From Pseudomonadota bacterium (GTDB taxonomy: Bacteria; Pseudomonadota; Alphaproteobacteria; Acetobacterales; Acetobacteraceae), in the NCBI GenBank assembly GCA_021826225.1, contig JAKBAV010000009.1, positions 1 through 40,458 on the forward strand: DNA of 40,458 nt, given 5' to 3'. The position numbers and the translations under genes are program-made. Of the stretch, positions 12,955-39,504 are shown one piece after another. Position 1 is the stretch's first letter. Each line of letters starts with the position of its first letter. The notes beneath the pieces are model-generated. The model had not been told where the DNA came from, made no database searches, and saw only the letters and a list, made by a program, of their open reading frames with translations.

Positions 12955-12964
12955 GCGGGAAAGC

Positions 12965-13549: not shown

Positions 13550-13569
13550 TCCTGCTCACTCCTCTGTTC

Positions 13570-14124: not shown

Positions 14125-14268
14125 TTTTAAGTCCTCACGGCAAAGGGGACCAAAGCGGTCCTGATATGGTGCTAGATTGGCGGTTTTTGCCGGAATGGCA
14201 AGTGGGGCATGGCTGCCGGGCGCGCAAAGCGGATTGGCAAAAGGCACCGGGAGGGGCAGATTTGGGGT

Positions 14269-15048: not shown

Positions 15049-15055
15049 ACCAGGT

Positions 15056-15535
15056 TCACGCCTCGGCGATGAGCCGCCCGCTTTCCTGCACGCCGAGGGC
15101 CGCCAGGGATTTGAGCGCGGCATTCAGGCCGCGATTGAGCTGCTGCGCGCGGCGGTTGGCGCTGACCGATTTTTTCGCGAAACGCGATAATGCGGCGCGC
15201 AGGGCCTCGGCCAGGCCGGCGGCATCCGCTTCCTCGATTTTGCGTAATTGCGCGGCGGCGGCGGCGAGGTTGCAGGCGCCGAGGCGGGCCATGGTTTCCG
15301 TGATCTCGGCGAAAGCCGGGCCGGCGGCTTTCAACGCCGCCTCGATACCGGCGGCGGCATCGGAAATATCATTGGGCTTGCCTGTGAGCATCAGCGAATC
15401 GAGGCATTGCAGCTGGCGGCTGAGATCTTCGACCAGATCCAGGCCCTGCCGCAATATTTCGGTGACAGGGGGGAGCGCCGGGGCCGGTTGCGCCGGCGCG
15501 GCTCTGTCGTTGAACTGCCCGGCCATGTTCATCAT
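15056..15535 (-). CDS. Probable FlgN-like flagellar export chaperone
   Basis: A 159-aa helical protein, the last gene of the flagellar run. Heptad-like helices (VTEILRQGLDLVEDLSRQLQCLDSLML and ANRRAQQLNRGLNAALKSLAALG) and its place directly after flgM match FlgN, the chaperone for the hook-filament junction proteins FlgK and FlgL. Sequence identity to known FlgN is too low for me to be certain. It overlaps the flgM stop by 4 bp. ATG codons at 15535, 15532 and 15526 are all possible starts. Confidence 0.6.
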   Translation of the reverse strand: MMNMAGQFNDRAAPAQPAPALPPVTEILRQGLDLVEDLSRQLQCLDSLMLTGKPNDISDAAAGIEAALKAAGPAFAEITETMARLGACNLAAAAAQLRKIEEADAAGLAEALRAALSRFAKKSVSANRRAQQLNRGLNAALKSLAALGVQESGRLIAEA

Positions 15536-15852
15536 TTTGATTCTTTCAGCACGGTGGCTATGGCCTGGGCGAGGTTTTCCGGCGACACGTTGTAACTGCC
15601 ATTGGCGAGCTGGGCGCGGATATTGGCGACGGCGGCTTTGTCGATGCCGGCGGCGCCTTGCGCGGCGGCGAGCACCTGGGCGCCGGATTGCGCGGCGGCG
15701 CTCAGCGTAACGGAATCGGTCTGCGGCGCGGCGGCACTGGCGGGCTGTCCCGCCAAAAGGGGCGTCGCCTGCCCCGCCATGGGGTTCGCGGTCTGGCTGG
15801 GCTGGGCGTCCGGCAGGCTGGGCTGGCGAAAAGGCGGGATGGTATTGCTCAT
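15532..15852 (-). CDS. flgM: Anti-sigma-28 factor FlgM
   Basis: A 106-aa protein with a disordered Pro/Ala/Gln-rich first half. Its C-terminal helices (VTLSAAAQSGAQVLAAAQ and IDKAAVANIRAQLANGSYNV, ending SPENLAQAIATVLKES) match the FliA-binding part of FlgM. It holds FliA inactive until the hook is complete and FlgM is exported. Its target, fliA, is in the same cluster about 13 kb upstream in the reading direction. It overlaps both neighbours by 4 bp. Confidence 0.85.
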   Translation of the reverse strand: MSNTIPPFRQPSLPDAQPSQTANPMAGQATPLLAGQPASAAAPQTDSVTLSAAAQSGAQVLAAAQGAAGIDKAAVANIRAQLANGSYNVSPENLAQAIATVLKESK

Positions 15853-16232
15853 GCGGCTATCACGCTTTCAGATGATTTTATCATGTCACGGTCGAGGATC
15901 GCCAAAGCCTGCTCGAAATCCTGCAGGGCTGAAACGCTGTTCTCGGTATTCGCGCGCAGCAGCGTGAAGCGCAAGGCGGCATAGATCGTCATCAGCGCTG
16001 GTCCGAGCGTCGTGCCTTCGGAGGTGTCAAGTATGCCGCTCATCACATTCAGCAGCTCATCGGCCCGCGCGATCATGATCGCCTTGGTCGCGGCATCGCC
16101 CTGCTCGATGGCGAGGCCGGCGCGGCGGCCATACTGGCGCAGGGCGCGCCAGCCCTGACGCAGCCAGGCGAGATCGGCGGCGCCGTCGAACATGCTGGCG
16201 CGGTAGGTACTGATGAGGTCGGTGCCACTCAT
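15849..16232 (-). CDS. fliS: FliS-like flagellin chaperone
   Basis: A 127-aa protein that opens with the FliS pattern of a Tyr-containing N-terminus (ISTYRASMFDGA), followed by four helices, with AIMIARADELLNVMSGILD matching the second-helix region. FliS binds the flagellin C-terminus and stops early polymerisation. It follows fliD by 9 bp, the standard fliD-fliS order. The identity is low but context is strong. Confidence 0.75.
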   Translation of the reverse strand: MSGTDLISTYRASMFDGAADLAWLRQGWRALRQYGRRAGLAIEQGDAATKAIMIARADELLNVMSGILDTSEGTTLGPALMTIYAALRFTLLRANTENSVSALQDFEQALAILDRDMIKSSESVIAA

Positions 16233-16241
16233 GTGTTGCCC

Positions 16242-17633
16242 TTATGATTTGCTACTGGAGCCGCTGCCGAGAAAAATGCTGAGGTAGGTCTGAGTGATGG
16301 AGGCGCTGCTCGCCTTGTTTTCCGCGACGATGTAACCCTGCTGGAGAATTTTGAGCTGGGCCGCGTTTTCCTTGGAAATCTGCAGCGATTGCGCGTCGAT
16401 CGAGGTGATGAGGGCGTTGAGCGAGGCTGTGGCGGCGGCGATGAAGCCGGTGCTCTTGCTGGTGATCGTGCCGCCGGCCGAACCGCTCGACGTGCCGAGC
16501 GCGCCGGTGGTAAGGCCGTTCAGCGTGCTATACAGGCTGCCTATAAGATTCTGCACCGAAATGGGACTTTTGGCATATTCGCTGGCGAAGCTGGTGGCGT
16601 TGAAGGAGACGACGCCCGAACCGCTCACGGATAACCCCACGGCACCGGCGGATACACCGCTGGCGGCCAGCCCGCTGACCGCGCTGAGCATCTCATTCTT
16701 GAGTTCAGTGGCGGAAAAATTACCCAGAAGCGGCCCCGCCGTCGCGGTGCTGCTGCCGGAGCCGGCGGTTGAGGCCGGGGTGAATTTGGTCATTTTGGCG
16801 ATGGTGGAAATTGCCGCGTTAAGGCTGGTGGCGACCGCCTGGACGGAGCTTGAGAGATTGGTGGGCGAGGAGGAGACCGAAACAACCGCATTGCCGGACC
16901 CTGCCAGCGCAATGGTCACGCCGGCCACCGCATTGGTCAACGTGTTGGTGCTGCTGGTGAGCGGCACGCCGTTGAGCGTGAGCGTGGCATTGCTGGCGGT
17001 CTGCGCCAAAACCTCGCCGGCATGGGCGGAGCCGGGGTTATAGTCGAATTGCGCCAGCGCGCCGGTGCCGGATACGTTGAATGCCCCGGCACTGCCCGTG
17101 GCGCTGCTGGTAAGCACCAGACGCGCCCCGGCCGAGGTGCCGATGACGCTGGCCTGCACACCACCCGGGGTTTTATTGATGGCGGCGGCGACGCCGTTCA
17201 GCGTCAGGCTGCCCGAGCCGATGGCAATGGTCTCATTTTTACCGCCAACGGCAAAGACCAGCGCGCCCGCGCCACCCGCAAGCGTGGCCGCGCCGGAGCT
17301 GAGCCGGTTGGAATAAATCTCCTGCGATTTAGCCAGAGAAATACTGGTAAGATTATAGGCGCCGGTGGCGGCCGTGTTGCTGACGGTGGCGGTGGCCTTG
17401 GTGCTATCCGTGGTGGAGGCGTTGCGGCTGCTGATGCTGGCGACGTTTTTGATGTTGGCGAGCGCCTGCGACAAGGTGGAGACGGCGCCATTGATATTGC
17501 CCCAGGCGGTAATACTGGCCTGCTCGGTGGTGACCTGGGCCTTCAACGCGGTGATGGGGGCCTGCATCCGCGCCTCGACCGTTGCGATCTGGCTGGCAAT
17601 CTGTGAGGATCCGAGGTTGCTGATGCTGGTCAT
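16242..17633 (-). CDS. fliD: Flagellar filament cap protein FliD
   Basis: A 463-aa cap protein that promotes flagellin assembly at the filament tip. The N-terminus (SSQIASQIATVEARMQAPI then LKAQVTTEQASITAWG) is the FliD_N coiled region; a Ser/Thr/Ala-rich central domain and the C-terminal coil (QISKENAAQLKILQQGYIVAENKAS) complete the family pattern. The middle is rich in short Ser, Thr and Ala runs, like the flagellin upstream. A strong hairpin lies between flagellin and fliD, so fliD probably depends on read-through or its own promoter. Confidence 0.88.
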   Translation of the reverse strand: MTSISNLGSSQIASQIATVEARMQAPITALKAQVTTEQASITAWGNINGAVSTLSQALANIKNVASISSRNASTTDSTKATATVSNTAATGAYNLTSISLAKSQEIYSNRLSSGAATLAGGAGALVFAVGGKNETIAIGSGSLTLNGVAAAINKTPGGVQASVIGTSAGARLVLTSSATGSAGAFNVSGTGALAQFDYNPGSAHAGEVLAQTASNATLTLNGVPLTSSTNTLTNAVAGVTIALAGSGNAVVSVSSSPTNLSSSVQAVATSLNAAISTIAKMTKFTPASTAGSGSSTATAGPLLGNFSATELKNEMLSAVSGLAASGVSAGAVGLSVSGSGVVSFNATSFASEYAKSPISVQNLIGSLYSTLNGLTTGALGTSSGSAGGTITSKSTGFIAAATASLNALITSIDAQSLQISKENAAQLKILQQGYIVAENKASSASITQTYLSIFLGSGSSSKS

Positions 17634-17698: not shown

Positions 17699-19222
17699 TT
17701 ACGGCAGCAGCGAGAGATAGCTCTGCTGCAGCTGGGTCGAGGATTTGAGCGCGGCGACACCGGCCTGCGCCTGGATCTGCGATTCGGTAAGCTTGTTGCT
17801 CACCGCCGGGATGTTGGCATCCTGCACCACGCCGAGCGCGGTGTTGAGGTTCTGGCTAGTGGTGTTCATGTTGTTGATGTTCGCCGTGAGGGCCTGCTGC
17901 ACCGCGCCGAGCTGGCCACCCTGGTTGTTAAGGGCGCCGAGCGCGTATTTCACCACGTTGATGGCGGTGTTGGCGCCCGCCGTGGTGGAGACGTTGATGG
18001 AGGACAGCGCGGTCAACGTGGACTTGTTGGCCAGGCCGATATTCGACGCATGCGCCACCGAGAAGGCACCGGAGGACTGGAACTGCACCTGGCCCTGGAC
18101 GACGGCGGAGGCCGAGGCACCGGACTTGATAACGCTGGCCGTGCCGCCGAGGGTTTTCAACGAGCCGGAGCTGGCGCCGGTGATGTTGATGTTGTAGCCG
18201 GCGGTCTGGCTCAACTGGATCTGGCCCGTGGTGCTGGTAAGCGATGCCACGATGCCGCTGGTCGAGGACTGACCGTTGATCTGGCTGACCATCTGTGCCG
18301 CGGAAGAGGCGGTGATGGTCTGCTTGGTGCCGATGCCCGAGCCATTCGTGCCGCCCGAACCCTTGCCGGACTGGATGGCGAAGGAATAGCCGCCATTCGT
18401 GCCGGCCGTGCCCAGCGCCAGCGTGATGCTGGTGGTGGCCTGCGCCTGCACGCCGGTGGTGCCCGAGACATTGTTGATGGCGGCGGCCAGCGATGCAGCC
18501 GATTCCTGCTTGGTGTTGGTGGCGACATTGGCGGTGCCGCCATTCGCGCCGGTTATGTTGAGCTCCGTCGCCGCCGTGGTGGCAACCGTGAACGCGCCGC
18601 CGGCACCGGAGGCGATCTGCGCCGTGGTTGCCTTGGTGAGGGCGGCGGAGGTCGCCTTCACGTTGGTGCCATAGATCGTGGCGCCGCTCACCGTGGAGGC
18701 GTTCATGCCGATGGCCGAGGCGGTGAGGTTGCTGATGGACAGCGTCGCGGTCTGGCCTTCATTGGCGCCGACCTGGAACTGCACACCGGAGAAGCTGCCA
18801 CTGAGCAGGTTGATGTTGTTGAACTGCGTCTGGTTGGCGATGGTGCTCACCTGCCCGGTGAGCTGGCCGACCAGATTCTGCAACGACTGGGATTCGGCCG
18901 GCGTCTGCGTGCCGTTGGCGGCCTGCACCGAAATGGAGTTGAGCTGCTGCACGATGCCGATCTGCTGGGTAATGGCGCCCTGCGCCGTCTGCAGCAGGGA
19001 CACACCCTGGTTGGCGTTGGAAATCGCCTGGGTCAGCCCGTTGAGCTGGGAGGTGAAGCCCTGGGCGGTAATGTAGCCGGCCGGATTATCAGCCGGGGTG
19101 TTGATGGACAGGCCGCTCGCGAGCTGGCTCTGCAGGCCGGTGGTTGAGGCGGAGGTATTCGAGATCGAGTTGAGCGCCTGAAGCGCGCCGGTATTGGTGA
19201 GGATTGAACCTACGGCCGACAT
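17699..19222 (-). CDS. fliC: Flagellin
   Basis: Filament subunit of 507 aa. Conserved ends are present: the N-terminal D0/D1 (GALQALNSISNTSASTTGLQ, LASGLSINTPADNPAGY, LNSISVQAANGTQTPAE, FNNINLLSGSF) and the C-terminal D1/D0 (NTTSQNLNTALGVVQDANIP, ending LQQSYLSLLP). The middle, roughly residues 165-400, is very rich in Ser, Thr, Ala and Gly with few charged residues, the type of surface that is O-glycosylated in other bacteria. AAGGAG (19229-19234) precedes the ATG by 6 nt, a strong site. A 107-bp gap upstream could hold its own promoter, but I find no convincing sigma-28 or sigma-54 match. A terminator follows. Confidence 0.93.
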   Translation of the reverse strand: MSAVGSILTNTGALQALNSISNTSASTTGLQSQLASGLSINTPADNPAGYITAQGFTSQLNGLTQAISNANQGVSLLQTAQGAITQQIGIVQQLNSISVQAANGTQTPAESQSLQNLVGQLTGQVSTIANQTQFNNINLLSGSFSGVQFQVGANEGQTATLSISNLTASAIGMNASTVSGATIYGTNVKATSAALTKATTAQIASGAGGAFTVATTAATELNITGANGGTANVATNTKQESAASLAAAINNVSGTTGVQAQATTSITLALGTAGTNGGYSFAIQSGKGSGGTNGSGIGTKQTITASSAAQMVSQINGQSSTSGIVASLTSTTGQIQLSQTAGYNINITGASSGSLKTLGGTASVIKSGASASAVVQGQVQFQSSGAFSVAHASNIGLANKSTLTALSSINVSTTAGANTAINVVKYALGALNNQGGQLGAVQQALTANINNMNTTSQNLNTALGVVQDANIPAVSNKLTESQIQAQAGVAALKSSTQLQQSYLSLLP

Positions 19223-19329: not shown

Positions 19330-20010
19330 TCATTGCAGCACGAGCTCCACCCCGGCGGCGGTCACCTGCGCGGTGAAGCGGCGGCCGGTGCCGGGATTGG
19401 TGAGCAGGATGGTGTCGCCGATGCGCCCGGTCTGCTCCGCCGTGGCATCGAGCGTGAGCTGCACCCCGCCGCTGCGGACATTCACCGCCACGGTCTGCCC
19501 GGCTTTGACCATGATGGGGGCCTGCACCGTATCCGCCGTGAGCGGCATGCCGGCGGCGAGCGACATGTCGGTGGTCGCGCCGATCAGCTGGGCGGGGTCA
19601 AAATAGACCTGGCGCCCGGCGAATTGCGCCACCGGCAAGGCGGCCAGGCGCAGATCGGCTGCGGTGAGCGGCTGGCCGGCGGCAAGAGGGCGGGCGGCAA
19701 CCACAATGCTCTCGCTCTGCGCGATGGTGACGCTGATATAGAGGGTCCAGCCGGGAGCGGCGCAATGCACCGCCGCCTGCTCGTAGGGGGCGGTGCCGCT
19801 CAGTGTTACCGCGAGCGGCGCGGCGCAGCCCTGCATGGCACGAGCGCCGGTGAGAGGGCCGAGGCTGAGGCTGGCGCCGGGCGGCACCACCGCGATGGCC
19901 GCTTGGCGCACCGCCGCCGCCACATCGTCCATGCTTTCGCCGTTGGCGAGGGCAAAGCCCGGCACAGCGGCAAGCCATGCTGCCAAAGCGAGGCTATACG
20001 GGCGCATCAT
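19330..20010 (-). CDS. flgA: P-ring assembly chaperone FlgA
   Basis: Periplasmic protein needed for P-ring formation. The 226-aa protein begins with a signal peptide (MMRPYSLALAAWLAAVPGFALA). The SAF-type block ARPLAAGQPLTAADLRLAALP and the C-terminal part VKAGQTVAVNVRSGGVQLTLDA with GDTILLTNPGTGRRF are typical. The ATG at 20010 overlaps the glycosyltransferase stop by 4 bp, so the two are translationally coupled; a second ATG follows at 20007. Confidence 0.9.
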   Translation of the reverse strand: MMRPYSLALAAWLAAVPGFALANGESMDDVAAAVRQAAIAVVPPGASLSLGPLTGARAMQGCAAPLAVTLSGTAPYEQAAVHCAAPGWTLYISVTIAQSESIVVAARPLAAGQPLTAADLRLAALPVAQFAGRQVYFDPAQLIGATTDMSLAAGMPLTADTVQAPIMVKAGQTVAVNVRSGGVQLTLDATAEQTGRIGDTILLTNPGTGRRFTAQVTAAGVELVLQ

Positions 20011-23000
20011 TCAGCCGCGCTACGCAGGGCGGCGCCACACGCGAGAGGAAGCCAGGGCGGCGGAGCCGCCAAGATCCAGGGCGGCGGAGCGTCTTCCAGC
20101 CCGGGGAGCGCCAGGGCGGCGCGGCGGGCGGCACGGCCCTGTTCCAGCGTGGCTTTTAGGTCCGCTATGGCGCCGCGCAGCGCCTCGCTCCACGCACCCA
20201 TGCGGGCCGGCAAAGCCAGGGCGCCAAGGCTGGCGGGCATGTCCAACCGGTCATCGGTGAGAATATGACACCCGGCGGCGGCGGCGATGAGCGCGGGGTA
20301 ATGGTCGGCATGCGTCTCGGTGGCGGCCGGGCGGAGCATGATCTGCGGGCCCAGTTCGGCGCAGGCCTCGGCCCAGGCGAATTCCGATTCCTGCGGCGCG
20401 ATGCGCGCCACCGCCCCGGCATATTGCGCGCCCCGGCGCTCGACGACGATCCACGAGGCGATGTCCAGCGTTTCATTGATGAGGTCGATCAGCCAGGGTG
20501 GGGCAATGCCCTCGTCGAACCAGAGCACGCGCGGCTTGGTGTTCAGCCCCGTGCCGAAGGTGAGTTCCTGCCAGATACGCGGCGACAAAGCCGGGCGCCA
20601 TAATGCGATGGGCTGGCCGGGTGTCGCGAGCCGGCGCAATTGCGTGACCAGCCCGGGCGAGGTGGCGAAAACGCTGGCCGCCGCGGTCAGGGCCGGCAGT
20701 GCGTCATGCTCCGGCAGGGCGGTGTAGACAGCCGTATAGACCGGGCTGTGCGGATGCGGCGGACGCAGCGGGTTCACGCGCACCCAGCCGGCGGCATCGC
20801 GGCGGCCGAGATCGGCGGCGCCAGGCAGCTCGGGCGCCCAATCGGCCTCGGCGATGCCGGCGCGGCGCAAGGCCCGCGCGGCATTGAGCACCGCTTCACC
20901 GGCCACGGCCTCGCCGGTGACGAGCAGGCTATGTGGGTCGCAGGGCTGGGCGCGGATCAGGCCGGTGCGGGATTCGCTCGCCAGCAGGTCGCCATGCAGC
21001 GAGAGGGCGGGATGGTGGTAGGGATCGGCCCAGGGTAGCGCCCGGGCCGCCGGCGTGCCGGTACGGAAGGCCGCGGCGGCATCGAGCTGCACCACGGCGG
21101 CGGGGGCGAGGAAGGAGATATCCGGCGTCCAGACCAGCCTGCCACCCTGGGCGCCACCATGAGCACGAAGCTGGGCGCAGAGATCGATCCACAGCGCATC
21201 GCCGGCAAGCGGCGGAAATTCGCAGGCCTGGAGTGAAGCGGTGCGGACCAGCAGGCCCGGCGGGGCGATGGCGCTGGCCTCCTGATCGACCAGCAGCCAG
21301 CCGCCGGGGCCAGGATCGTCCGGCATGTGCCCGGCACCGAGCCTGGTATCGGCACCGATGACGATGGGACCCTGCACGGCGGCCTGGCGCAGATCGCCGC
21401 CCGCCGGCACCAGCGTGCGCGCCCCGGCCATGACGATGGCCGGGTCGGCCAGCCGCGCGCGCAAGCCCGCCACCCAGTTGGGCGCGGTGGGCTGGGCCCG
21501 GATATCGGCGATGGCGAGGAGCGGGGTAGCGGCCATGGCCACGGCCTGGGCCAGGGCCGCCGAGGGGGTGAGGCCGGGGGCGGGCAACACGGCCAGCACC
21601 TTGCCTTCGAGCGCCGCGTTGGACTGGGTGACGGCGGTGAGATAATTTTGCATCTGCGGGCTCAACGCGGCGCCCGCGAGGATGATGGGGCCACTTAATG
21701 GGCCGGCATTCAGCAATGTGGCGAGCCAGGCATCGAGTGCCGGAATATCGCCCTCCTCGCAGAGCAGCAGCGTCGTCGTGCCGGGGTCCTGGGTGATACG
21801 CATGTGGTGGAACAGGCCGGGATGCTGGCGCGCCTGGACATCGGCCTTCAGCCCGCAGCGTTCGAGATGCTGCTTCAGCGCATCGGCGGCACGGGCGCAG
21901 AACACGTCGATTTTGATGTCGTCACGCTGGCTCTGAGCGCTGCGGGTGAACAGGGCTTCCGGCAGGCGGATGATGTTCGCCGCGTTCCCCTCGGCCAGGC
22001 GGAGCTGGAAGTCGTACTCCTCGGCGCCGGCGCAAGCCGAGTTGAAGCCGCCCAGGCGCAGTACATCGGATCCGCGATACCAGACCCAGTCCCCGATATA
22101 GGCTGATTGGCGGAGCCGTGTGACATCCCAGCCCGGCTTATGGCGCACCCAGCCGCCGCCGGCGCGCGGTACGATCTCGTCGCAATACAGCATCGCGGCA
22201 TCGCTCTCGCGGGCGGTGAGGGCGAAACGCTGGCAGGCATCCGGGGCGATGGTGTCCCCAGCATTGATGATGGCAACATAATCGGCGGCGCTGGCTTCCA
22301 GGTTCAGCTCGGCGCAGGCGATGCGCGTGGCGGCCTCGGGCTCGGGCGGTACGGCGATGGTGGTGATGCCAGTAATGGCGACCTCTTCCACGGCGAGAAT
22401 TTTGATGCGCGCCGGGGGCAGCCATTGCGCATGCAGGGATTCCAGCGTCTCGTTAACGGCGGCGGCGCGGCCGCGCGGCGCCACGATGATGACGGAGACG
22501 CTCGGTAGCGGGCCTGCGTATTTAGTGAGGGCGGCTTCAGTGAGGGCGGTCAGGCGGGCGCGGGCGCCATCATCGGTGCGCTCCGCCGGGCGCAATCCGG
22601 TGGCGGGCGCGGCGGGTGACGCGGCATTGGTGACGAGCGAGCCGCCAAGGGCGGGAATGACGCGGCCCCGGCTGGCGCCGATTTCGGTGAGGAACCCGAC
22701 CAGATCGGCGGTTTCAGCGGCGAAACCATCCCACAAAGCGGGCGAGACCTGGCGCTTGCAGATCGCCCCCCAGGTCGCCTCGACGAGCTGACGCAGCGGC
22801 CGGCAGAGATCCGCCTGGGGCAGCGGCGCGGCGCGGTTGAGCTGGGTGGTGAGATAGGCGGCGGCATCACGCAGCGCGGCATCGCCGCCCAGTTCCAGGC
22901 CGAGCTCCGCACCGATCCGTATCAGCGCCACCTGGGGTTCGGCCAGCAGCTCGTGATAGGTGAGCCAGCTGCGCGGCAGATGCCGGGCCTGGCGCTCGGC

Positions 23001-23492
23001 GGCGGTGACATAGCTCATCCACAGCAGGGCGGCATGGGCGCGGCTCAAGCCATTTTTCAACGATTGGCTGGCGGCGGCGGTCCAGGGGTCGCGGAAAATA
23101 TGCACGACATGCGGCTTGTGCCCGGCCTGGCGCGCGGCACGCTCGTAAAGCGGCAGCGTGCGGCACAGATGCGGGTGTTTGAGGCCCCAGATTTTATCCT
23201 GCTGCGTGAAGCGGCGGCGCAATATGTCATCCAGCCGGGTGAGCATGGTGGCGAGGTCGGCGCGCTCGGCCCAGCCCAGCGGCAAGCCGCGCACATCCGT
23301 CCAGTCGATGCCGAGGCGGTTGAACAATTCGACATCGAATTCGATCAGCTCCGGGATTTCATAGAAGCCGAGCGGGTTATGCTCGTTCGGATCGGCCTCG
23401 TTATAGAATTTTACACCCGCGCGGGACAAGGCGCCCGAAAGTGCCGAGGTTCCGCTGCGGTAATAGCCGACGATGAAAATCGCATCCGACAT
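20007..23492 (-). CDS. Giant sulfotransferase-glycosyltransferase fusion, candidate flagellin-modifying enzyme
   Basis: A 1161-aa multidomain protein. Residues 1-270 look like a PAPS-dependent sulfotransferase: a 5'-phosphosulfate loop in FIVGYYRSGTSALSGAL (about 6-22) and a 3'-phosphate site in VVHIFRDPWTAAASQSLKNG (R134, S142). Residues 330-510 form a GT2-type glycosyltransferase (PSVSVIIVAPRGRAAAV, AIINAGDTIAPDA, YCDE at 436-439 and AEEYDFQLRLAE). About 570-830 looks like a second, degenerate GT2-like module, and 870-1161 a GT-B-like tail (HYPALIAAAAGCHILTDD). AGGGAG overlaps the flgL stop, 9 nt before the ATG, and the end overlaps flgA by 4 bp, so it is made with flagellar proteins. Sugar addition or sulfation of flagellin is inferred, not shown. 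A 24-bp direct repeat lies near the 3' end. Confidence 0.8.
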   Translation of the reverse strand: MSDAIFIVGYYRSGTSALSGALSRAGVKFYNEADPNEHNPLGFYEIPELIEFDVELFNRLGIDWTDVRGLPLGWAERADLATMLTRLDDILRRRFTQQDKIWGLKHPHLCRTLPLYERAARQAGHKPHVVHIFRDPWTAAASQSLKNGLSRAHAALLWMSYVTAAERQARHLPRSWLTYHELLAEPQVALIRIGAELGLELGGDAALRDAAAYLTTQLNRAAPLPQADLCRPLRQLVEATWGAICKRQVSPALWDGFAAETADLVGFLTEIGASRGRVIPALGGSLVTNAASPAAPATGLRPAERTDDGARARLTALTEAALTKYAGPLPSVSVIIVAPRGRAAAVNETLESLHAQWLPPARIKILAVEEVAITGITTIAVPPEPEAATRIACAELNLEASAADYVAIINAGDTIAPDACQRFALTARESDAAMLYCDEIVPRAGGGWVRHKPGWDVTRLRQSAYIGDWVWYRGSDVLRLGGFNSACAGAEEYDFQLRLAEGNAANIIRLPEALFTRSAQSQRDDIKIDVFCARAADALKQHLERCGLKADVQARQHPGLFHHMRITQDPGTTTLLLCEEGDIPALDAWLATLLNAGPLSGPIILAGAALSPQMQNYLTAVTQSNAALEGKVLAVLPAPGLTPSAALAQAVAMAATPLLAIADIRAQPTAPNWVAGLRARLADPAIVMAGARTLVPAGGDLRQAAVQGPIVIGADTRLGAGHMPDDPGPGGWLLVDQEASAIAPPGLLVRTASLQACEFPPLAGDALWIDLCAQLRAHGGAQGGRLVWTPDISFLAPAAVVQLDAAAAFRTGTPAARALPWADPYHHPALSLHGDLLASESRTGLIRAQPCDPHSLLVTGEAVAGEAVLNAARALRRAGIAEADWAPELPGAADLGRRDAAGWVRVNPLRPPHPHSPVYTAVYTALPEHDALPALTAAASVFATSPGLVTQLRRLATPGQPIALWRPALSPRIWQELTFGTGLNTKPRVLWFDEGIAPPWLIDLINETLDIASWIVVERRGAQYAGAVARIAPQESEFAWAEACAELGPQIMLRPAATETHADHYPALIAAAAGCHILTDDRLDMPASLGALALPARMGAWSEALRGAIADLKATLEQGRAARRAALALPGLEDAPPPWILAAPPPWLPLACGAALRSAAE
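20052..20090 (-). repeat. 24-bp in-frame direct repeat near the 3' end of the fusion gene
   Basis: CCAGGGCGGCGGAGC occurs at 20052-20066 and 20076-20090, 24 bp apart, and a partial copy CCAGGGCGGCG follows near 20110. On the coding strand this gives two APPPW motifs (APPPWILAAPPPWLPLA). Confidence 0.85.
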
Positions 23493-23505: not shown

Positions 23506-24714
23506 CTAAATATAGTTGAACAGGCTGAGGCCCTGGACGGTGCCGAATGTCTTCATGGCGGCCTGCAGCGCGGTCATGGTCTGGTCGAGCGCGGCGATGG
23601 CGGCCGGGGTGTTGACGGCGGTGGCGTTGGTGACGCTGGTCTGCGCCTCGGTGGACTGGTTGGTGTTGCCGGCGCCGGTGGCGGTGATGGCCTGCAGGGT
23701 AACGCCGTTTTGCGCCTGGGCGGTGGTGACGCTCTGCTGGTACTGGGCGATGCCGGCCAGGCCTTGGTTCAGGATCTGGTTGGTCTGCGCCACCTGGGCC
23801 GGGGTGCCGCCAGCATTGGAAAGTGCTGTGTAGATGGTTTTGAGCAGCGCAAACGCGGATTGGGTGCGGGCCGGGGCAATGGTGAAACTATCGCCATTCG
23901 CGGGTGTGCCGGTGATGTTGTAATCAACCCCGGCGAGCTGCAGGCTGGTGCCGGTGAGGCTGGCGGTGGTGAGGCTGCCGCTGGCGATGGTGCTGCCGCC
24001 TTGCGTCGCGGTATAGGTATTGCCGGCGCCGATGCTGACCGTAATGGGCGCGCTGCTCTGCTGGAAGGCGTTGGCGGCGGCGGCATTGACCGCGCCCTGC
24101 GGGATGATCTGGCCGGTGCCGGTATTGGCGGCGGCGGCGGTGACGCTGCCGATGCCATCGCCCTGCAGCGCGCCGGTGAAGACCGTGCCATTGGCGATGG
24201 TGCTCGCGGTCGAGGTCTCGCCGATGCTGGCCTGAGAGGCCGCGCCATCGCCGAAATAGGCGATATTGCCCGTGGTGTCCGGCTGGAACGGCGCAAGCCC
24301 GCCGCGCGAGCCGCCGAACAGATAGGTCCCATTGGGCGCGGTGGTGTTGCCGATGGCGAGGAGCTGTTGCGCGGCCGATTGCACCTGCCCCGCCAGCGCA
24401 TTCAGGTTCTGGCTGTTGCTGGTGCCGTTGAGCGCCTGCTCGACGATGGACTGCACGTTGTTGAGCAGGGCGCCGGTGGCGCTGTAGGCGTTATTGGCGG
24501 CGCCGAGCTGCACCTGAATGGCGGCCTGGGTGGTGTTGTCATTGGCGAGGCGGCTGACCTGATCGGTGCCGAGTGCCGCGGTCTGGTAGGCGGCCGGGTT
24601 CTGGTCGGGCGTCTGCACCGTCAGCCCCGTGGAAATCTGCTGCTGCAGCGTGTTGATCTGAGCTTCCTGCGCGACCAGCGAATTGGTGAAATTGGAATAG
24701 AATGAAAGATCCAT
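23506..24714 (-). CDS. flgL: Hook-filament junction protein FlgL (HAP3)
   Basis: Flagellin-like junction protein of 402 aa. The N-terminus (SFYSNFTNSLVAQEAQINTL then ISTGLTVQTPDQNPAAY) and the C-terminus (TALQAAMKTFGTVQGLSLFNYI) follow the FlgL pattern, and TYLFGGSRGGLAPF is the typical (L/F)FGG block of FlgL. The ATG at 24714 is chosen for AAGGAG 7 nt upstream; the frame is open to 24786. The usual partner flgK is not beside it. The gap to fliJ upstream is 56 bp, larger than earlier junctions. Confidence 0.9.
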   Translation of the reverse strand: MDLSFYSNFTNSLVAQEAQINTLQQQISTGLTVQTPDQNPAAYQTAALGTDQVSRLANDNTTQAAIQVQLGAANNAYSATGALLNNVQSIVEQALNGTSNSQNLNALAGQVQSAAQQLLAIGNTTAPNGTYLFGGSRGGLAPFQPDTTGNIAYFGDGAASQASIGETSTASTIANGTVFTGALQGDGIGSVTAAAANTGTGQIIPQGAVNAAAANAFQQSSAPITVSIGAGNTYTATQGGSTIASGSLTTASLTGTSLQLAGVDYNITGTPANGDSFTIAPARTQSAFALLKTIYTALSNAGGTPAQVAQTNQILNQGLAGIAQYQQSVTTAQAQNGVTLQAITATGAGNTNQSTEAQTSVTNATAVNTPAAIAALDQTMTALQAAMKTFGTVQGLSLFNYI

Positions 24715-24770
24715 TTTGGCGCTCCTTGACCAGGCCGGACCAGACCGGCGAGGGAAATGAGGTTTCATGT

Positions 24771-25181
24771 TCATGCCGGCCGCCACGGCCGCGCGCGCTC
24801 GGCCTTCTGTTCGGCGGCCGCGGCGGCGGCACGGGTGGCAGCGGTGAGTTTGGCGGCGAGCTTGCGACGGTAGGCGCCGAGCCTGGCGAGGTCATCGGCA
24901 GCACTTTGCAACCGCGCCGACGCCGCCGCCTCGGTGGCGGCGATCTGCGCCGCCGCGGCTTGTGCGCCGGCGCTGAAATGGCTGGCGCGGCGGGCCTCGG
25001 CGGCCGGAATTGCGCGCCCATCCTGCCAGCTTGCCGCGAGCCGGCCGCGATAGGCCTCCAGCAGCTCGCATTGCTGCCGGCTTTGCATGAGGGCGGTGGC
25101 CTGGCTGCGGAGAGTATCGCGCAGCCGCGCCTCGCGCTCGGCCGCCAGCAGGTCGAGCCTGGCGATGAGTTGCGGCTTCAT
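24771..25181 (-). CDS. fliJ: FliJ-like export apparatus stalk protein
   Basis: A 136-aa, almost wholly helical and Ala/Arg-rich protein, predicted antiparallel coiled coil (LIARLDLLAAEREARLRDTL to RLGAYRRKLAAKLTAATRA). FliJ inserts into the FliI hexamer like the gamma stalk of F1-ATPase. Position right after fliI with a 4-bp overlap is the main evidence, since FliJ sequences are poorly conserved. Confidence 0.75.
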   Translation of the reverse strand: MKPQLIARLDLLAAEREARLRDTLRSQATALMQSRQQCELLEAYRGRLAASWQDGRAIPAAEARRASHFSAGAQAAAAQIAATEAAASARLQSAADDLARLGAYRRKLAAKLTAATRAAAAAAEQKAERARPWRPA

Positions 25182-26527
25182 GGCGCGGCACCCGGCTCGG
25201 CCAGGGCGGCTTCAAGCGCGGCGAGGCTGGCGGCGAGGCCGCAGCCGGCATCGGCATCCTGGCGCAGCACCGCCTCCATGGCAGGGGCACGGCGCAGCGC
25301 TTCGTCAAGCAGCGCGTCGCGTCCGGGGGCGTAGGCGCCAAGGTCGATGATGTCCTGCTTCTCGGCGCGCCGCGCCCAGAGCGCGCGGAAGCGGGCGGCG
25401 AGGCGCAGATGCGCCGGGCTGACCAGTGCCGGCATCGGGCGGGAGAGCGAGGCGGTGATGTCGATTGGCGGGTAGATGGCGGCCTCGGTGAGCGCCCGGG
25501 AAAGCACGATATGGCCATCCAGCACCGAGCGCGCGGTATCGGCCACCGGATCGCCGACATGGTCGTCGCCTTCGACCAGCACGGTATAGATGGCGGTGAT
25601 GGAGCCCTGCGCGGCAGCGCCATTGCCGGCGCGCTCGACATAGGCGGCCAGCGCGCCGAACACCGAAGGCGGGTAGCCCTTGGTGGCGGGCGGCTCGCCG
25701 GCGGCCAGGCCGATCTCGCGCAGGCCCATGGCGAGGCGGGTGAGGCTGTCCACGACGAGCAGGACATGCTTGCCCTGGGCGCGGAAGAACTCGGCGGCAG
25801 CGGCGGCACGGTAAGCGCCATGGACGCGGCCCAGAGCGGTGTCATCAGCCGGCGAGGCGATGACCACGCTGCGCGGCCGGGCAGGCCCGATATGATCTTC
25901 GATGAACTCGCGAATTTCGCGGCCACGCTCGCCGATCATGCCGACGACCACGATATCGGCATCGGCATGGCGCGCGATCATGCCGAGCAGCGTGGTTTTG
26001 CCGACGCCCGAACCCGCGAACAGCCCGACGCGCATGCCCCGCCCGAAACTGGCCAGCGCGTTGATGGCGCGGATGCCGGTATCGAACGGTTGCGCGATGC
26101 GCTGCCGTGCCATCGGGTTGATGGCGATGCCGAGCAACGGCCAGGGCTGGGTGACATCGGGCGGTGCCAGGCCATCGAGCGGCCCACCCCGCGCATCGAG
26201 CACGCGGCCGAGCAGAGCATCCCCCATCAGCGGCGCCGGCGCGCGGCTTTCGACATGGATGCGCGCGCCGCGCACTACGCCGCGCGTGCCCTGTTCGGGC
26301 ATGACCAGCAGCGTGCCGGCCGCGAAACCGACGATTTCGGCGGGCAAAGCCGCGCCATGCTCCATTTCGATGAGGCAGCGCGCGCCGACCGGGGCGCGGA
26401 TGCCCGAAGCGTGCAACACCTCGCCATTGGAGCGCGTGATGCGGCCGAAGCGGCGTACCGGGTCTGTGGCCATGGCCTGGGCCACGCGCGCATGTGCCAG
26501 ATCGCGGATATGCCCGGTATCGATCAT
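25178..26527 (-). CDS. fliI: Flagellar export ATPase FliI
   Basis: F1-beta-like ATPase of 449 aa that powers flagellar protein export with FliH and FliJ. Walker A is AGSGVGKTT (171-179), GERGRE is at 199-204, and Walker B is HVLLVVDSLTR (254-264). The ERAGNGAAAQGSITAIYTVL region and the late ITASLSRPMPALV are conserved. It overlaps fliH and fliJ by 4 bp each, so the three export ATPase parts are coupled. Confidence 0.95.
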   Translation of the reverse strand: MIDTGHIRDLAHARVAQAMATDPVRRFGRITRSNGEVLHASGIRAPVGARCLIEMEHGAALPAEIVGFAAGTLLVMPEQGTRGVVRGARIHVESRAPAPLMGDALLGRVLDARGGPLDGLAPPDVTQPWPLLGIAINPMARQRIAQPFDTGIRAINALASFGRGMRVGLFAGSGVGKTTLLGMIARHADADIVVVGMIGERGREIREFIEDHIGPARPRSVVIASPADDTALGRVHGAYRAAAAAEFFRAQGKHVLLVVDSLTRLAMGLREIGLAAGEPPATKGYPPSVFGALAAYVERAGNGAAAQGSITAIYTVLVEGDDHVGDPVADTARSVLDGHIVLSRALTEAAIYPPIDITASLSRPMPALVSPAHLRLAARFRALWARRAEKQDIIDLGAYAPGRDALLDEALRRAPAMEAVLRQDADAGCGLAASLAALEAALAEPGAAP

Positions 26528-27228
26528 GCGCCCTCCGCCGCCAGGCCGAGTGCCGCGCGCATGGTCTCAAGCCGGCCCTGCAGCGTGGCGTCCCACTCGA
26601 CCTTGTCGACCGGATCGCCATCCGGGGTGACGATTTCCACCATCGCGCCGCCGGCTGTTATCGTTTCATCGGCCAGGAGCTGCGCCGTGCCGGGCGGTAT
26701 GGTACCGGCGATGAGCCGATGATCGGCGGGGTTGAGGCGCAGGCGCAGCATCTGGCGGGCACCGCGCTCGGCGGCGGCCTCATCGAGCAGCTTGGTGACG
26801 AGTCCGTGAAGCCCGTCCGCGCCGGCATCAGCGGCCGGGCTTATATTGCCGGCGAGCCCGCCTGGGCCGCTATGGCGGGCGAGCCCGCCGAGGCCGATAT
26901 GCCGGGCGAGCAGAAAGCCGAGTTCGACGGCAAGCTCGGCAAGCTCGCGCTCCTTCTGCGCCAGCGGCGCCATGAGCTGCGCCGCGGCCACGCCGAACGC
27001 GGCGATGGCGGAGCCGAGTGCGCCTTCAAGCGGGGCGAGCGCGGCGCGGGCGGCGGTCTCGCCGGCGGCGCGCGCCTCGGCCTCGGCGGCATCACGCAGT
27101 TTTGCTACTTCCTGGCGCACGTGGCGGGCAATCTCGGCATCCCGCGCGGCACTCTCGGCGGTATCCGGCGACAACACGTTCTGTACGAAAGCCTTGTTGC
27201 GGGCGTGCGAGATGGTGACGAAGCTCAT
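26524..27228 (-). CDS. fliH: FliH-like negative regulator/stator of the export ATPase
   Basis: A 234-aa protein with an N-terminal charged helix (RDAEIARHVRQEVAKLRDAA), a long central coiled coil and a C-terminal globular part (LRLRLNPADHRLIAG, GGAMVEIVTPDGDPVDKVEW) as in FliH, which dimerises and binds FliI. The start at 27228 overlaps the small membrane gene by 4 bp; the longer open frame to 27360 lies inside that gene. Residues about 101-126 contain a glycine-rich 9-residue tandem repeat (RHIGLGGLA, RHSGPGGLA, GNISPAADA) unusual for FliH and made by a 27-bp duplication. Confidence 0.85.
   Translation of the reverse strand: MSFVTISHARNKAFVQNVLSPDTAESAARDAEIARHVRQEVAKLRDAAEAEARAAGETAARAALAPLEGALGSAIAAFGVAAAQLMAPLAQKERELAELAVELGFLLARHIGLGGLARHSGPGGLAGNISPAADAGADGLHGLVTKLLDEAAAERGARQMLRLRLNPADHRLIAGTIPPGTAQLLADETITAGGAMVEIVTPDGDPVDKVEWDATLQGRLETMRAALGLAAEGA
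26844..26924 (-). repeat. 27-bp tandem repeat inside fliH
   Basis: Units at 26844-26870 and 26871-26897 share GGCGAGCCCGCC and differ at few bases; a third, more diverged unit follows at 26898-26924 (TATGCCGGGCGAGC). The period of 27 bp preserves the frame. Confidence 0.8.
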
Positions 27229-27479
27229 GATTCGGCGCCATCGTGGCGCATCGTGGTCAGCGCGCGGCCGAAAACGGCGCCGAACAAGCCGAGCAGCGGG
27301 CCACACAGCGCGAGGCCGGCGCGGGTGAGCAGCGCCACGGTGCAGGCACCGCAGAGCCACACGCCGATACTGGCCGGGCTCATCACCTCCGGCTCATGCG
27401 CGGCCGCCCAGGCGGTCATGGCCGCCAGAGTGAGCATGAACGGGCTGAGAATCTGTTTCGGCTTTGCTGGTTTTGCCAT
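27225..27479 (-). CDS. Small two-helix membrane protein in the flagellar operon
   Basis: I do not recognise this 84-aa protein. It begins MAKPAKPKQILSPFMLTLAA, a basic start followed by a first hydrophobic helix (about 12-28), then a second helix (about 36-62, IGVWLCGACTVALLTRAGLA), and ends in a charged tail. The ATG at 27479 is preferred over 27485 because AGGAG lies 6 nt ahead of it and directly abuts the other. It is locked between motB (9-bp gap) and fliH (4-bp overlap), so it is surely expressed with them. Stator support or export-gate anchoring are possible but unproven roles. Confidence 0.8.
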   Translation of the reverse strand: MAKPAKPKQILSPFMLTLAAMTAWAAAHEPEVMSPASIGVWLCGACTVALLTRAGLALCGPLLGLFGAVFGRALTTMRHDGAES

Positions 27480-27488
27480 CTGCATCTC

Positions 27489-28304
27489 CTATGGCTGCGC
27501 GGGGGCGGGGGCGTGCACCACGACGACGACCCGGCGGTTAGCCGCGCGGCCAAGGTCTGTGCTGTTATCAGCAACCGGTGCGAACTGGCCGAAGCCTTCG
27601 GCGGCGAGCTGACCGCCGGGCAGGCCGGCATTCGTAAAAAGCTGTACGACGCTGACCGAGCGCTCCGAGGAGAGCGACCAGTTGGAGGGAAACTGCGCCG
27701 TGGCGATGGGCTGGTTATCCGTATAGCCCTGCACGACGACCCTGAAATTCGCCGGGAGCTTGACCAGCCCGGCGGCAACCTGTTGCAGCAATGTCACCGC
27801 CTCGGGCTTCAGCGCCGCCTCGCCGGAGGGAAACAGCACCGAGGCGTCGAGCTGGATGGTGAGGGTGAGCGGTGCGTTGCTGATGGTGACCTGGTGCTTA
27901 TCGATCAGCGGCTGGAACAGGGCCGTTAGTTTCAGTTGCAGCGCCTGCAATGCCTGCATGGATTGCGCGAGCTGGTGTGCCACATCCTTCGGCAGCCTGG
28001 CGCCCGGCGCCTCGGCATGTTCGGGAATCGGCGAGGTGTGGTGCTGCAGCACGCCGCGCGAGCCCGAGGGGGTCTGCACCGTGATCGAGGGCGGGGTACC
28101 GTGAAATGCCTTGATGAAAGCCTGCGCGATTTCGTCTTCCTTGTGATGATTGCGCGTGGACGAGGCGTAGAGCACGACGAAGGTGGCGAGCAGCAGGGTA
28201 AGCAGATCGGCATAGGAAATGACCCAGCGCTCATGATTGGCATGACCTTCTGCATGAGGCTTTTTTTTGCCGCGCCGGGGCGGGGAATGCGGGGGGCTGG
28301 ACAT
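27489..28304 (-). CDS. motB: Flagellar motor stator protein MotB
   Basis: A 271-aa stator subunit. A basic cytoplasmic N-terminus is followed by one membrane helix, SYADLLTLLLATFVVLYASS, with the ion-binding Asp at D33. The C-terminal OmpA-like peptidoglycan-binding domain is clear (VVVQGYTDNQPIA, SLSSERSVSVVQLF, GRAANRRVVVVV). The ATG at 28304, 4 nt after the motA stop, is used; the open frame to 28544 lies inside motA. Confidence 0.93.
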   Translation of the reverse strand: MSSPPHSPPRRGKKKPHAEGHANHERWVISYADLLTLLLATFVVLYASSTRNHHKEDEIAQAFIKAFHGTPPSITVQTPSGSRGVLQHHTSPIPEHAEAPGARLPKDVAHQLAQSMQALQALQLKLTALFQPLIDKHQVTISNAPLTLTIQLDASVLFPSGEAALKPEAVTLLQQVAAGLVKLPANFRVVVQGYTDNQPIATAQFPSNWSLSSERSVSVVQLFTNAGLPGGQLAAEGFGQFAPVADNSTDLGRAANRRVVVVVHAPAPAQP

Positions 28305-28308
28305 GGGG

Positions 28309-29109
28309 CTACTCCGCCGGCTGCGCGGCGCCGGCCGGCTCGTCGCCGGTCTCGGGCTTAACAGGGGATTTTTTGGTCTCGAGGAAGCTTTGCAGATTCT
28401 GCCTGATAACGATGCCGGGCTTGCCTTCCGCCAGCAGCATGAAGCCCTGGATGACGACATGGCGCTCGCGCTCCAGCTCCTTGGCCAGATGTTTGAAGCG
28501 CGCGCCCAGCGGCAGGGCGATGAGGTTGGCGAAGCCGACACCATAGATGGTGGCGACGAAAGCGGTGGCGATACCTTGGCCCAGCTCCTCGGGATGGTCG
28601 AGCCGCATCATCACATGGATGAGACCGAGCACGGCGCCCATCACGCCGATGGTGGGGGAATAGCCGCCAAGCGCCTCCCAGACCTCGGCCGGGGCCATTT
28701 GCGTGCGGCCGGCATTTTCACCCATGATTTCGAGAATCGTCGCGAAATCATCGGGGCCGGTATTGTCGACGATCATCTGCAGGCCCTGCCTCTGGAAGGG
28801 ATCTGCAACGGTGGGGATGATGTTTTCCAGCGCGAGCGTGCCCTGGCTGCGCGCCAGGGTGGACCATTCCGCCACCTGCTCGATGAATTTAGGCAGATCG
28901 GTTTTGGGCGGTTTGGCGAGCCAGCCCAGCCCCTTCATGGCGGTTATCATTGGCCCCAGGCCGAAATGCACCAGCGAGGCCGAGAAGGCGCCGCACAACA
29001 CGATGATGACGGCGGTGACGCTGAACAGCGAGGATAGCGGATCGGAATCCGATATCGCGCCGCCGACGACGCAGAGTATGCCAAGGACGAGTCCGAGCAG
29101 GCTGGTCAT
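28309..29109 (-). CDS. motA: Flagellar motor stator protein MotA
   Basis: A 266-aa membrane protein forming the stator ion channel with MotB. It has two N-terminal helices (SLLGLVLGILCVVGGAIS and VTAVIIVLCGAFSASLVHFG), a charged cytoplasmic loop (RQGLQMIVDNTGPDD), then two more helices (SPTIGVMGAVLGLIHVM and ATAFVATIYGVGFANLIALP) with the conserved Pro and TM4 Gly/Ala pattern. It overlaps fliA by 4 bp. Whether it uses H+ or Na+ cannot be told here. Confidence 0.93.
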   Translation of the reverse strand: MTSLLGLVLGILCVVGGAISDSDPLSSLFSVTAVIIVLCGAFSASLVHFGLGPMITAMKGLGWLAKPPKTDLPKFIEQVAEWSTLARSQGTLALENIIPTVADPFQRQGLQMIVDNTGPDDFATILEIMGENAGRTQMAPAEVWEALGGYSPTIGVMGAVLGLIHVMMRLDHPEELGQGIATAFVATIYGVGFANLIALPLGARFKHLAKELERERHVVIQGFMLLAEGKPGIVIRQNLQSFLETKKSPVKPETGDEPAGAAQPAE

Positions 29110-29681
29110 GGCACCGTGTTTCCCTTATGCGCGGCGTTGATAGTGATGGCGAGACTCTCCAGCGCGCGCTTGCGCAGACGTGAGGCATAGCCTTCCGAAA
29201 CATCGAGGATCGCGGCGATTTCGCGGTTGTTCATGTCATCATAGAAATGCATGGCGAGAATCTGGTATTCCAGCCGTGGCAGGGTTTTCAGCGCGGCGAT
29301 GAGCAATATGCGATTATCGGCGCTGGTGAGCAGGCTGAGCGGGTCCTGCGGGGCGGTGCCGTTTTCGACCGCGGCATGGTCGACATCCTCGGGCTCGAAC
29401 AGAATATGGCCGCGCCGGCTGGCGCCTTCGCGGCGCAGCCCGTCGATCATCGCGCCACGGATGCGGCGGCTGGCGAAAGCCTGGAAGGTGACGCCGTGGC
29501 TGATATCGAAGCGCTGCATCGATTCCATCATGCCGATGGCCCCCCATTGCAGTAATTCATCCAGCTCCGCCCATGGCATTCTGGATTTTATGAGCAGCGC
29601 CATGCGCTTGACCCAGCCACCATAGAGCGTGGTGAGGGAGGCCACATCCGTGGCGGCGGCGGGGACGGAAATATCAGCCAT
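29106..29681 (-). CDS. fliA: Flagellar sigma factor FliA (sigma-28)
   Basis: A 191-aa sigma factor of the FliA group that drives late flagellar genes. Region 2 is in LDELLQWGAIGMMESMQRFD and VTFQAFASRRIRGAMIDGLR; region 4 is TLPRLEYQILAMHFYDDMNN then REIAAILDVSEGYASRLRKRAL with the DNA-binding helix-turn-helix. It is shorter than the usual 230-240 aa, mainly in the middle region-3 part. The ATG at 29681 overlaps flhA by 8 bp; the longer frame is inside flhA. FlgM in the same cluster is its expected inhibitor. Confidence 0.9.
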   Translation of the reverse strand: MADISVPAAATDVASLTTLYGGWVKRMALLIKSRMPWAELDELLQWGAIGMMESMQRFDISHGVTFQAFASRRIRGAMIDGLRREGASRRGHILFEPEDVDHAAVENGTAPQDPLSLLTSADNRILLIAALKTLPRLEYQILAMHFYDDMNNREIAAILDVSEGYASRLRKRALESLAITINAAHKGNTVP

Positions 29682-31767: not shown

Positions 31768-32023
31768 GCAGCAGGGCCGGAATGGCGTTGAACAGATCCA
31801 TGGCGTAAGTCTCGACGCCGCTCAGCATGAAGCCGCCCGCCGCGATGGTGAGCACGGCGATGCCGCCCAGCTTCAGCACGAAGGGAATAGACGCCTCGCG
31901 CACCTGCGTCGCGGTCTGCACCACCCCGACACCCAGCCCGATGGCGAGCATGAGCAGCAGGACGGGTCCCGCGAGCTGCGCGAAGGCGAACCAGGCGCCG
32001 GTGCTGATACTGGTCGCGCTCAC
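31760..32023 (-). CDS. fliQ: Flagellar export gate protein FliQ
   Basis: An 87-aa export gate subunit with two membrane helices (LAGPVLLLMLAIGLGVGVVQ and LKLGGIAVLTIAAGGFMLSG) around TATQVREASIPFV, matching the Q-T-Q-hairpin of FliQ. It lies between fliM-fliN (4-bp overlap) and flhA (8-bp overlap). The companions fliP and fliR, which form the gate with FliQ, are not in this window. Confidence 0.92.
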   Translation of the reverse strand: MSATSISTGAWFAFAQLAGPVLLLMLAIGLGVGVVQTATQVREASIPFVLKLGGIAVLTIAAGGFMLSGVETYAMDLFNAIPALLHG

Positions 32024-32379
32024 GCGACAGCTCCGGCTTCCGCCGCGGCATCCTCGGCCAGGCCTGTAACACGCACGCCGTAACGGTCATTGGCGACGGC
32101 CACGACCTCGCCATAGGCGAGCTTCTGGCCATTGGCGAAAATCACCAGCGGCTCACCGACCATCTGGTCGAGTGCGACGATCTGGCCATGGCGCAACGCC
32201 CGCAGATCCTTCACGGTGATCTGGGTACGGCCAAGCTCGACGGTAAGCGCCACCTGCACGCGGTCGAGCACGTTGCGCCCGGCTATGACGGGGGCGCCGC
32301 GCGGCTGCGGCTGGATGCGCTCCAGCTCCACGCGTTCCGGCTCCGCCAGTTTCTCGGCGCGGTCTTTCGGCTCGGTCAT
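32020..32379 (-). CDS. fliN: Possible separate FliN from an internal start
   Basis: An internal ATG at 32379 within the fusion gene is preceded by AAGGAG with 8-nt spacing and opens MTEPKDRAEKLAEPERVELE, a charged N-terminus like that of many FliN proteins, followed by the complete FliN SpoA domain (119 aa in all). Related type III secretion SctQ genes are known to make a short C-terminal product in this way. The signal is seen; its use is inferred. Confidence 0.55.
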   Translation of the reverse strand: MTEPKDRAEKLAEPERVELERIQPQPRGAPVIAGRNVLDRVQVALTVELGRTQITVKDLRALRHGQIVALDQMVGEPLVIFANGQKLAYGEVVAVANDRYGVRVTGLAEDAAAEAGAVA

Positions 32380-38295: not shown

Positions 38296-38306
38296 GGATT
38301 CTGATC

Positions 38307-39489: not shown

Positions 39490-39504
39490 TTCAAGGAGGC
39501 ATGA

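Follow-up and report, generated by a model that had tools for sequence, protein, structure and literature searches.

We describe a protein of 1161 residues, here called the giant, which is encoded on the minus strand (20007-23492) of a 40,458-nt stretch of an Acetobacteraceae contig (JAKBAV010000009.1), hereafter the window, as a real and uninterrupted open reading frame (ORF) within a run of flagellar genes. A flagellar role of the giant is well supported by genomics. We consider it reasonably probable that the giant works in the cytoplasm, glycosylating flagellin or a different filament protein and then sulfating the glycan ahead of export; what we infer here are the two activities and the order in which they occur, the sugar, the location in the cytoplasm and the choice of flagellin as acceptor. 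The original prediction, made from the sequence of this stretch, had read the protein as one that could add both sugar and sulfate to a filament or junction protein, and at the genomic and structural level this is supported, the chemistry being a prediction.

Pooling the loci from all searches and removing redundancy on 600 nt left 35 distinct copies of the giant, the window's own counted, of which five are truncated at the end of a contig. In 34 of the 34 copies where it could be tested, flgL immediately precedes the giant on the same strand (the contig of the 35th begins inside the gene), and flgA is the next gene downstream in 31 of 31, the contigs of the other four ending inside the gene. 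Not one of the 34 testable copies lies away from flgL, and full-length homologues were found only in flagellar clusters, which is the opposite of the outcome that the original prediction had named as damaging, namely homologues lying mostly outside such clusters. A search of contigs for the giant gave 24 loci, with Acidocella among them; further copies were found in a second genus of the same family (2 of 3 sampled genomes), in a third, g96 (3 of 13 genomes), and in g167, a genus of another family of the same class (2 of 3 genomes), where a 120-genome sample of that family gave a full-length giant in one genome.

The presence of the giant follows that of its neighbor. Among 200 genomes in the family searches, the six with a full-length giant are the same six that have a strong FlgL match, and one more genome, with a weak and stop-ridden FlgL-like match, is without it. 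The genome with two strong FlgL matches, G187, has two giants, one in each flagellar cluster, and both clusters contain fliS, fliD, flagellin, flgA, the giant, flgL and fliI in the stretches read. These two giants (L073 and L074) are 53% and 61% identical to that of the window, and the giant of L074 is that of L052, Acidocella facilis ATCC 35904. No giant was found beside the other alphaproteobacterial FlgL matches that were read (G534, G980, G897, G953 and G890; 5-20 kb each). The pairwise identities of the giant correlate with those of FlgL (Mantel r 0.957, n=29) and FlgA (r 0.961), with 0 of 999 permutations as high, a correlation that common ancestry would lift for any chromosomal genes. 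This FlgL type has a strong score in only 6 of the 200 family genomes; the flagellar system is therefore patchy in its distribution and may have passed from one lineage to another.

In predicted structures the giant consists of a sulfotransferase (ST) fold, two GT2-like glycosyltransferase (GT) domains and a GT4-like tail of the GT-B fold (modules 1 to 4, Table 1), so that the four folds previously proposed from the sequence, an ST, a GT2, a degenerate GT2-like module and a GT-B-like tail, were confirmed. The search with hidden Markov models that had been suggested alongside listed two sulfotransferase families, with module 1 scoring under the cut-off, and no Pfam GT family. The Pfam scan (E<=10) gave neither a TPR nor a Maf domain, the NCBIfam scan (E<=0.01) gave zero matches, and a sequence search of the PDB returned nothing useful for the whole giant, with only a profile of the head reaching E ~0.1. 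Inspection by eye, without a program, noticed no transmembrane or signal region.

An alignment of 29 copies, four remote ones among them, has 154 invariant positions, of which 64 fall in the head, 36 in the first GT2-like domain (GT2-1), 14 in the second (GT2-2) and 30 in the GT-B tail, the remainder lying between modules (6) and in the linker (4). In PAPS (3'-phosphoadenosine 5'-phosphosulfate) sulfotransferases the P-loop RSGT and the residues R...S at the 3'-phosphate have defined roles, and in the giant R12, S13, G14 and T15 of the P-loop together with E45, K105, R134 and S142 are invariant in 29 of 29 copies, as are the motifs AGD, Y-x-DE, KP and EE of GT2-1. Modules 1 and 2 are also the better conserved toward the four remote copies, with identities of 0.39-0.43 versus 0.20-0.31 for modules 3 and 4. 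The functional roles of the GT motifs are known, and when modules 3 and 4 are compared by eye, in alignments, with relatives from another class (see below), GT2-2 has lost N-N-D at the DxD position and the nucleotide motif of D-N-D/G-S type, and in the GT-B tail the E is gone from the L-L-E-Y-G stretch. Of the three GT-like modules, only one retains most of its motif set. Nonetheless, all modules are under purifying selection, including the motif-depleted GT2-2 and GT-B: in five pairs of giants, dN/dS (the ratio of nonsynonymous to synonymous substitution rates, from our own Nei-Gojobori script) was 0.08-0.13 for the head, 0.07-0.19 for GT2-1, 0.08-0.27 for GT2-2 and 0.09-0.22 for GT-B, the head being the lowest module in four of the five pairs. 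One copy, L062 (the same as L095 and L119), has an in-frame stop after residue 1018, through decay or an assembly error.

Relatives of the parts were also found in another proteobacterial class, that of G590, which we take to be the Gammaproteobacteria. Of 369 genomes searched at E<=1e-15, with at most two candidates scored per genome, 26 had a match, and up to 20 kb was read around 21 of these matches, the five left out all being matches to the head only. Eight genomes had a match to the GT part, and in all eight it lies in a flagellar locus: in seven it is beside a flagellin gene (L164, L165, L178, L179, L180, L181 and L182), in six of these, all except L179, between flgL and flagellin, and in the eighth, L116, its neighbors are fliK (PF02120) and a NeuB-type gene, the stretch read containing no flagellin. 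Residues 329-1149 of the giant match the L116 protein (E 5e-30, 24% identity) and residues 332-890 that of L165 (E 3e-32, 30% identity), so that a homologous GT2-GT2-GT4 core is common to the giant and these relatives in flagellar loci. In the 13 loci read that had entered through the ST head no flagellar query matched; in two of them, L168 and L183, the ORF concerned has a weaker match to the GT part as well. At L168 three tandem small ORFs (13967-16440) that share a WSAK-GCTFAVKW stretch and look sulfotransferase-like by eye adjoin an ST-GT2-GT2 fusion in an O-antigen-type cluster.

Two of the flagellar relatives, L165 (1525 aa) and L164 (1599 aa), which lie between flgL and flagellin, are themselves fusions of an ST with the GT core, in the order GT4-ST-GT2-GT2-GT4-like tail (the tail by sequence reading), and in each a methyltransferase-type gene separates flgL from the fusion. 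The ST module of L165 is under the Pfam cut-off, and that of L164, missed by Pfam, rests on 37% identity to the giants. In L116 and L178 it is a methyltransferase module that precedes the GT core, and the whole reads as a modular family in which a common GT2-GT2-GT4 core would carry interchangeable glycan-decorating heads. Next to its ST fusion, the flgL-flagellin interval of L164 holds a second giant of 1771 aa (12265-17580), which appears, from its sequence, to have a TPR-like start, then GT2-like and GT4-like modules, then GT2-GT2-GT4-like. In the ST tree a long stem leads to a single clade (100/100) that holds the 11 rows of giants; L165 groups with L173 (98/86), a pairing flagged as possibly a false one between long branches, and L164 sits on an unresolved fork. 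In the GT tree, made by a quick method, the flagellar fusion L138 (the place of L164) stands beside the giants with an SH-aLRT (Shimodaira-Hasegawa-like approximate likelihood ratio test) value of only 91, and the fusion L142 (the place of L165) does not. Both an independent and a single origin of the fusions are compatible with the two trees.

With these data, a scheme of action can be envisioned. The giant would be soluble and cytoplasmic and would act on flagellin prior to export. GT2-1 would use a nucleotide sugar as donor and glycosylate either Ser/Thr of flagellin or a sugar already attached, modules 3 and 4 may be decayed GT folds kept as scaffold or acceptor-binding parts, and module 1 would transfer sulfate from PAPS to the glycan before the subunit is exported. 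A supply of PAPS is plausible: APS (adenosine 5'-phosphosulfate) kinase, the source of PAPS, is present in 21 of 22 giant-bearing genomes tested. The wider proposal is that in acidophilic and other alphaproteobacteria one polypeptide glycosylates the filament and O-sulfates the glycan by way of PAPS, resulting in a sulfated flagellum, and that sulfotransferases were recruited repeatedly, in two classes; we put this at even chances. The recruitment of sulfotransferases into flagellin glycosylation loci, parallel to that of the fused methyltransferases, would belong to the same picture, and for it too the balance is level.

Several findings weigh against an enzyme that both glycosylates and sulfates, and some of them favor a particular alternative. 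In the Pfam scan of the giant only the two sulfotransferase families appeared and no GT family; the last Asp of EE-x-D in GT2-1, a possible catalytic residue, is variable (G in L048, E in L058); and no sugar-synthesis gene was recognized among the ORFs scanned in the flagellar run. The 94% complete genome G351 has a giant but no APS kinase match, and G130 has APS kinase but no giant, for which reason PAPS supply was rejected as a marker of the giant. In the GT tree a long branch places the second giant of L164 with non-flagellar rows, and at L115 a GT-part match lies next door to the ST relative, within a sugar gene cluster. The best structural neighbors of module 1 are tyrosylprotein sulfotransferases, i.e. 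enzymes with a protein target, and a fold of this kind suggests that the head could sulfate Tyr (or Ser/Thr) of flagellin or of hook-associated proteins directly, the GT modules serving as a binding scaffold. FlgL, in which five Tyr are kept in 22 of 22 rows, could be such a target. Direct Tyr sulfation of flagellin is disfavored because no Tyr of its variable region is retained in more than 9 of 22 rows, with one flagellin having a single Tyr in the aligned stretch. The invariant motifs of GT2-1 also speak against a protein sulfotransferase, as does the occurrence of the stand-alone ST relatives L114 and L115 among polysaccharide-type genes (read from ORF starts), and we regard it as improbable. 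An alternative about as improbable is that only the GT part is active and that the head is non-catalytic, with a binding role in flagellin glycosylation. The head scores 22 bits against Pfam Sulfotransfer_3 (PF13469), for which the gathering cut-off is 27, and because of this we assign it to the sulfotransferase fold only and not to that family. Moreover, residues 105-108 are K-H-P-H in 29 of 29 giants versus K-D/E-P-R in 36 of 36 relatives, and residue 146 is K in all 29 versus R in all 36 of these stand-alone or otherwise fused relatives. Judged from the alignment, this would be a change particular to the clade and close to the active site of the sulfotransferase, and therefore the acceptor or the catalysis may have changed. 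However, the head has the low dN/dS given above and keeps the P-loop, E45, K105, R134 and S142 invariant, and ST modules recur in two other flagellar islands, none of which fits easily with a head that has lost its activity.

The two remaining alternatives concern the acceptor. Instead of flagellin it could be FlgL, FlgK or FliD at the filament ends, since flgL is the constant neighbor of the giant, and in the f12 genomes (L112, L113) the opposite strand carries flagellin and fliD. Nevertheless, seven of the eight GT relatives in the other class are beside flagellin, and the known enzymes in a similar position modify flagellin, according to the part of the P. syringae report consulted (PMC3927599), so that we find this quite unlikely. 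An enzyme for surface polysaccharide that is merely located in the flagellar operon, the alternative that the original prediction had offered, has in its favor the ST-GT2-GT2 fusion of L168 (by Pfam), which sits in an O-antigen-like cluster as judged from neighbors read by ORF starts and weighs against a flagellar enzyme as well, and the ST relatives L114 and L115 in sugar gene clusters. This alternative has lost ground and is now very unlikely, given that no testable copy is away from flgL, that both flagellar clusters of G187 keep the giant and that the GT relatives in the other class are flagellar in every genome that has one. Architecture alone is insufficient to assign a flagellar acceptor; it is the genomic position that carries the argument for one.

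The neighborhood in the window agrees with the tight coupling that had been noted between flgL, the giant and flgA: 13 nt separate the giant from flgL, and the flgA start and the giant stop overlap by 4 nt (ATGA). After the giant the order on the minus strand is flgA, flagellin, fliD, fliS and flgM, and the nearby Ser/Thr-rich flagellin proved to be as described (Table 1).

Table 1. Positions in the window of the giant, its modules and the surrounding flagellar genes.
Feature	Position	Strand	Remarks
Giant (ST/GT2/degenerate GT2/GT-B protein)	20007..23492	minus	1161 aa, intact ORF
Module 1	22668..23492	minus	residues 1-275; PAPS-sulfotransferase fold; P-loop YYRSGTS, E45, K105, R134, S142
Module 2 (GT2-1)	21798..22508	minus	~residues 329-565; GT2-like GT-A; AGD, Y-x-DE, KP, EE invariant
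Module 3 (GT2-2)	20982..21797	minus	~residues 566-837; second GT2-like; DxD and nucleotide-site motifs lost
Module 4	20052..20939	minus	~residues 852-1147; GT-B (GT4-like); EX7E-type motif not kept
flgL	23506..24786	minus	directly upstream of the giant, 13 nt; TIGR02550 over cut-off
flgA	19330..20010	minus	downstream; TIGR03170 over cut-off; PF13144
Flagellin	17699..19222	minus	507 aa, 25.6% Ser+Thr, 6 Tyr; proposed acceptor
fliD (filament cap)	16242..17633	minus	scores under the models' cut-offs
fliS and flgM	15532..16232	minus	
Remaining flagellar run	25178..37183	minus	fliI, fliH-like, motB, motA, sigma factor, flhA, fliM, fliK, fliG, fliF

The minus-strand run reaches back to fliF at 37183, and the gene at 29674-31767, which from its sequence we take to be flhA, is conserved in relatives. 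Divergent from the run, on the plus strand (37924-39939), are a response regulator and then two ORFs with flagellar rod-protein domains. The source genome (2.6 Mb, 87% complete) has a rich set of sulfotransferases, with 13 Sulfotransfer_3 matches, ten of them over the cut-off, and the closest relatives of the window that carry a genus name are Acidocella.

If the proposed reading is true, the flagella of these bacteria would have a sulfated sugar coat, and for an acidophile it would make sense if the filament surface bore a fixed negative charge that low pH leaves untitrated. Sulfated flagellin is a testable and surprising prediction from genomic and structural data. Neither PAPS-type O-sulfation nor a PAPS-sulfotransferase acting on bacterial flagellin was among the matches listed in a search of open-licence literature, which mostly excludes subscription papers. 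In the accessible portions of the main texts, no word beginning with "sulf" occurs in PMC4875605, PMC3927599, PMC7874193 or PMC7591256, it occurs once, as a detergent, in PMC12645811, and "sulfotransferase" is absent from PMC5207245 and PMC5207246.

The closest known systems include the flagellin glycosyltransferases of flgL-fliC islands, FgtA/PA1091 of Pseudomonas aeruginosa among them. For Pseudomonas syringae, the part of the report available to us (PMC3927599) shows a cluster that runs from flgL to fliD and in which fgt1 and fgt2, the genes for flagellin glycosyltransferases, are placed upstream of fliC. Fgt1 and Fgt2 resemble the giant in being large soluble GTs near flgL and flagellin, a likeness of position, homology having been shown for the proteins of other genomes; the giant adds the ST head, and its second GT2 and its GT-B are degenerate. 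Such a head would, from the sequence, set it apart from the known flagellin glycosyltransferases near flgL and fliC in general. FlmG of Caulobacter, also an alphaproteobacterium, is likewise a modular flagellin glycosyltransferase of the cytoplasm, where we would place the giant too; as far as the consulted text goes, FlmG is composed of TPR and GT and works with pseudaminic acid, and the giant is without a TPR match (PMC7591256). Closer in design are proteins in which a GT is fused to a glycan-decorating enzyme. Methyltransferase-GT fusions are described, in the portion seen, for enterobacterial islands (PMC4875605), and excerpts on the type B flagellin of Clostridium difficile report a GT2 with a methyltransferase domain and a glycan capped by sulfonated taurine (PMC5207245, PMC5207246), bacterial flagellin glycans being reported with methyl, phosphate and sulfonate groups (PMC7874193, PMC5207245). 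The C. difficile system shares with our proposal both the fusion and a flagellin glycan that bears an anionic sulfur group, but its sulfur is a taurine sulfonate and its fused domain a methyltransferase. Archaea have reached sulfated swimming filaments by another route. Per the sections consulted (PMC11980604), the archaellins of Halobacterium carry sulfated N-glycans, whose loss of sulfation has only a small effect on motility; the glycan is an archaeal N-glycan, the sulfotransferase genes are separate and the filament is unrelated, yet the outcome there, a sugar sulfated by sulfotransferases on a swimming filament, is the one that we propose here for the giant.
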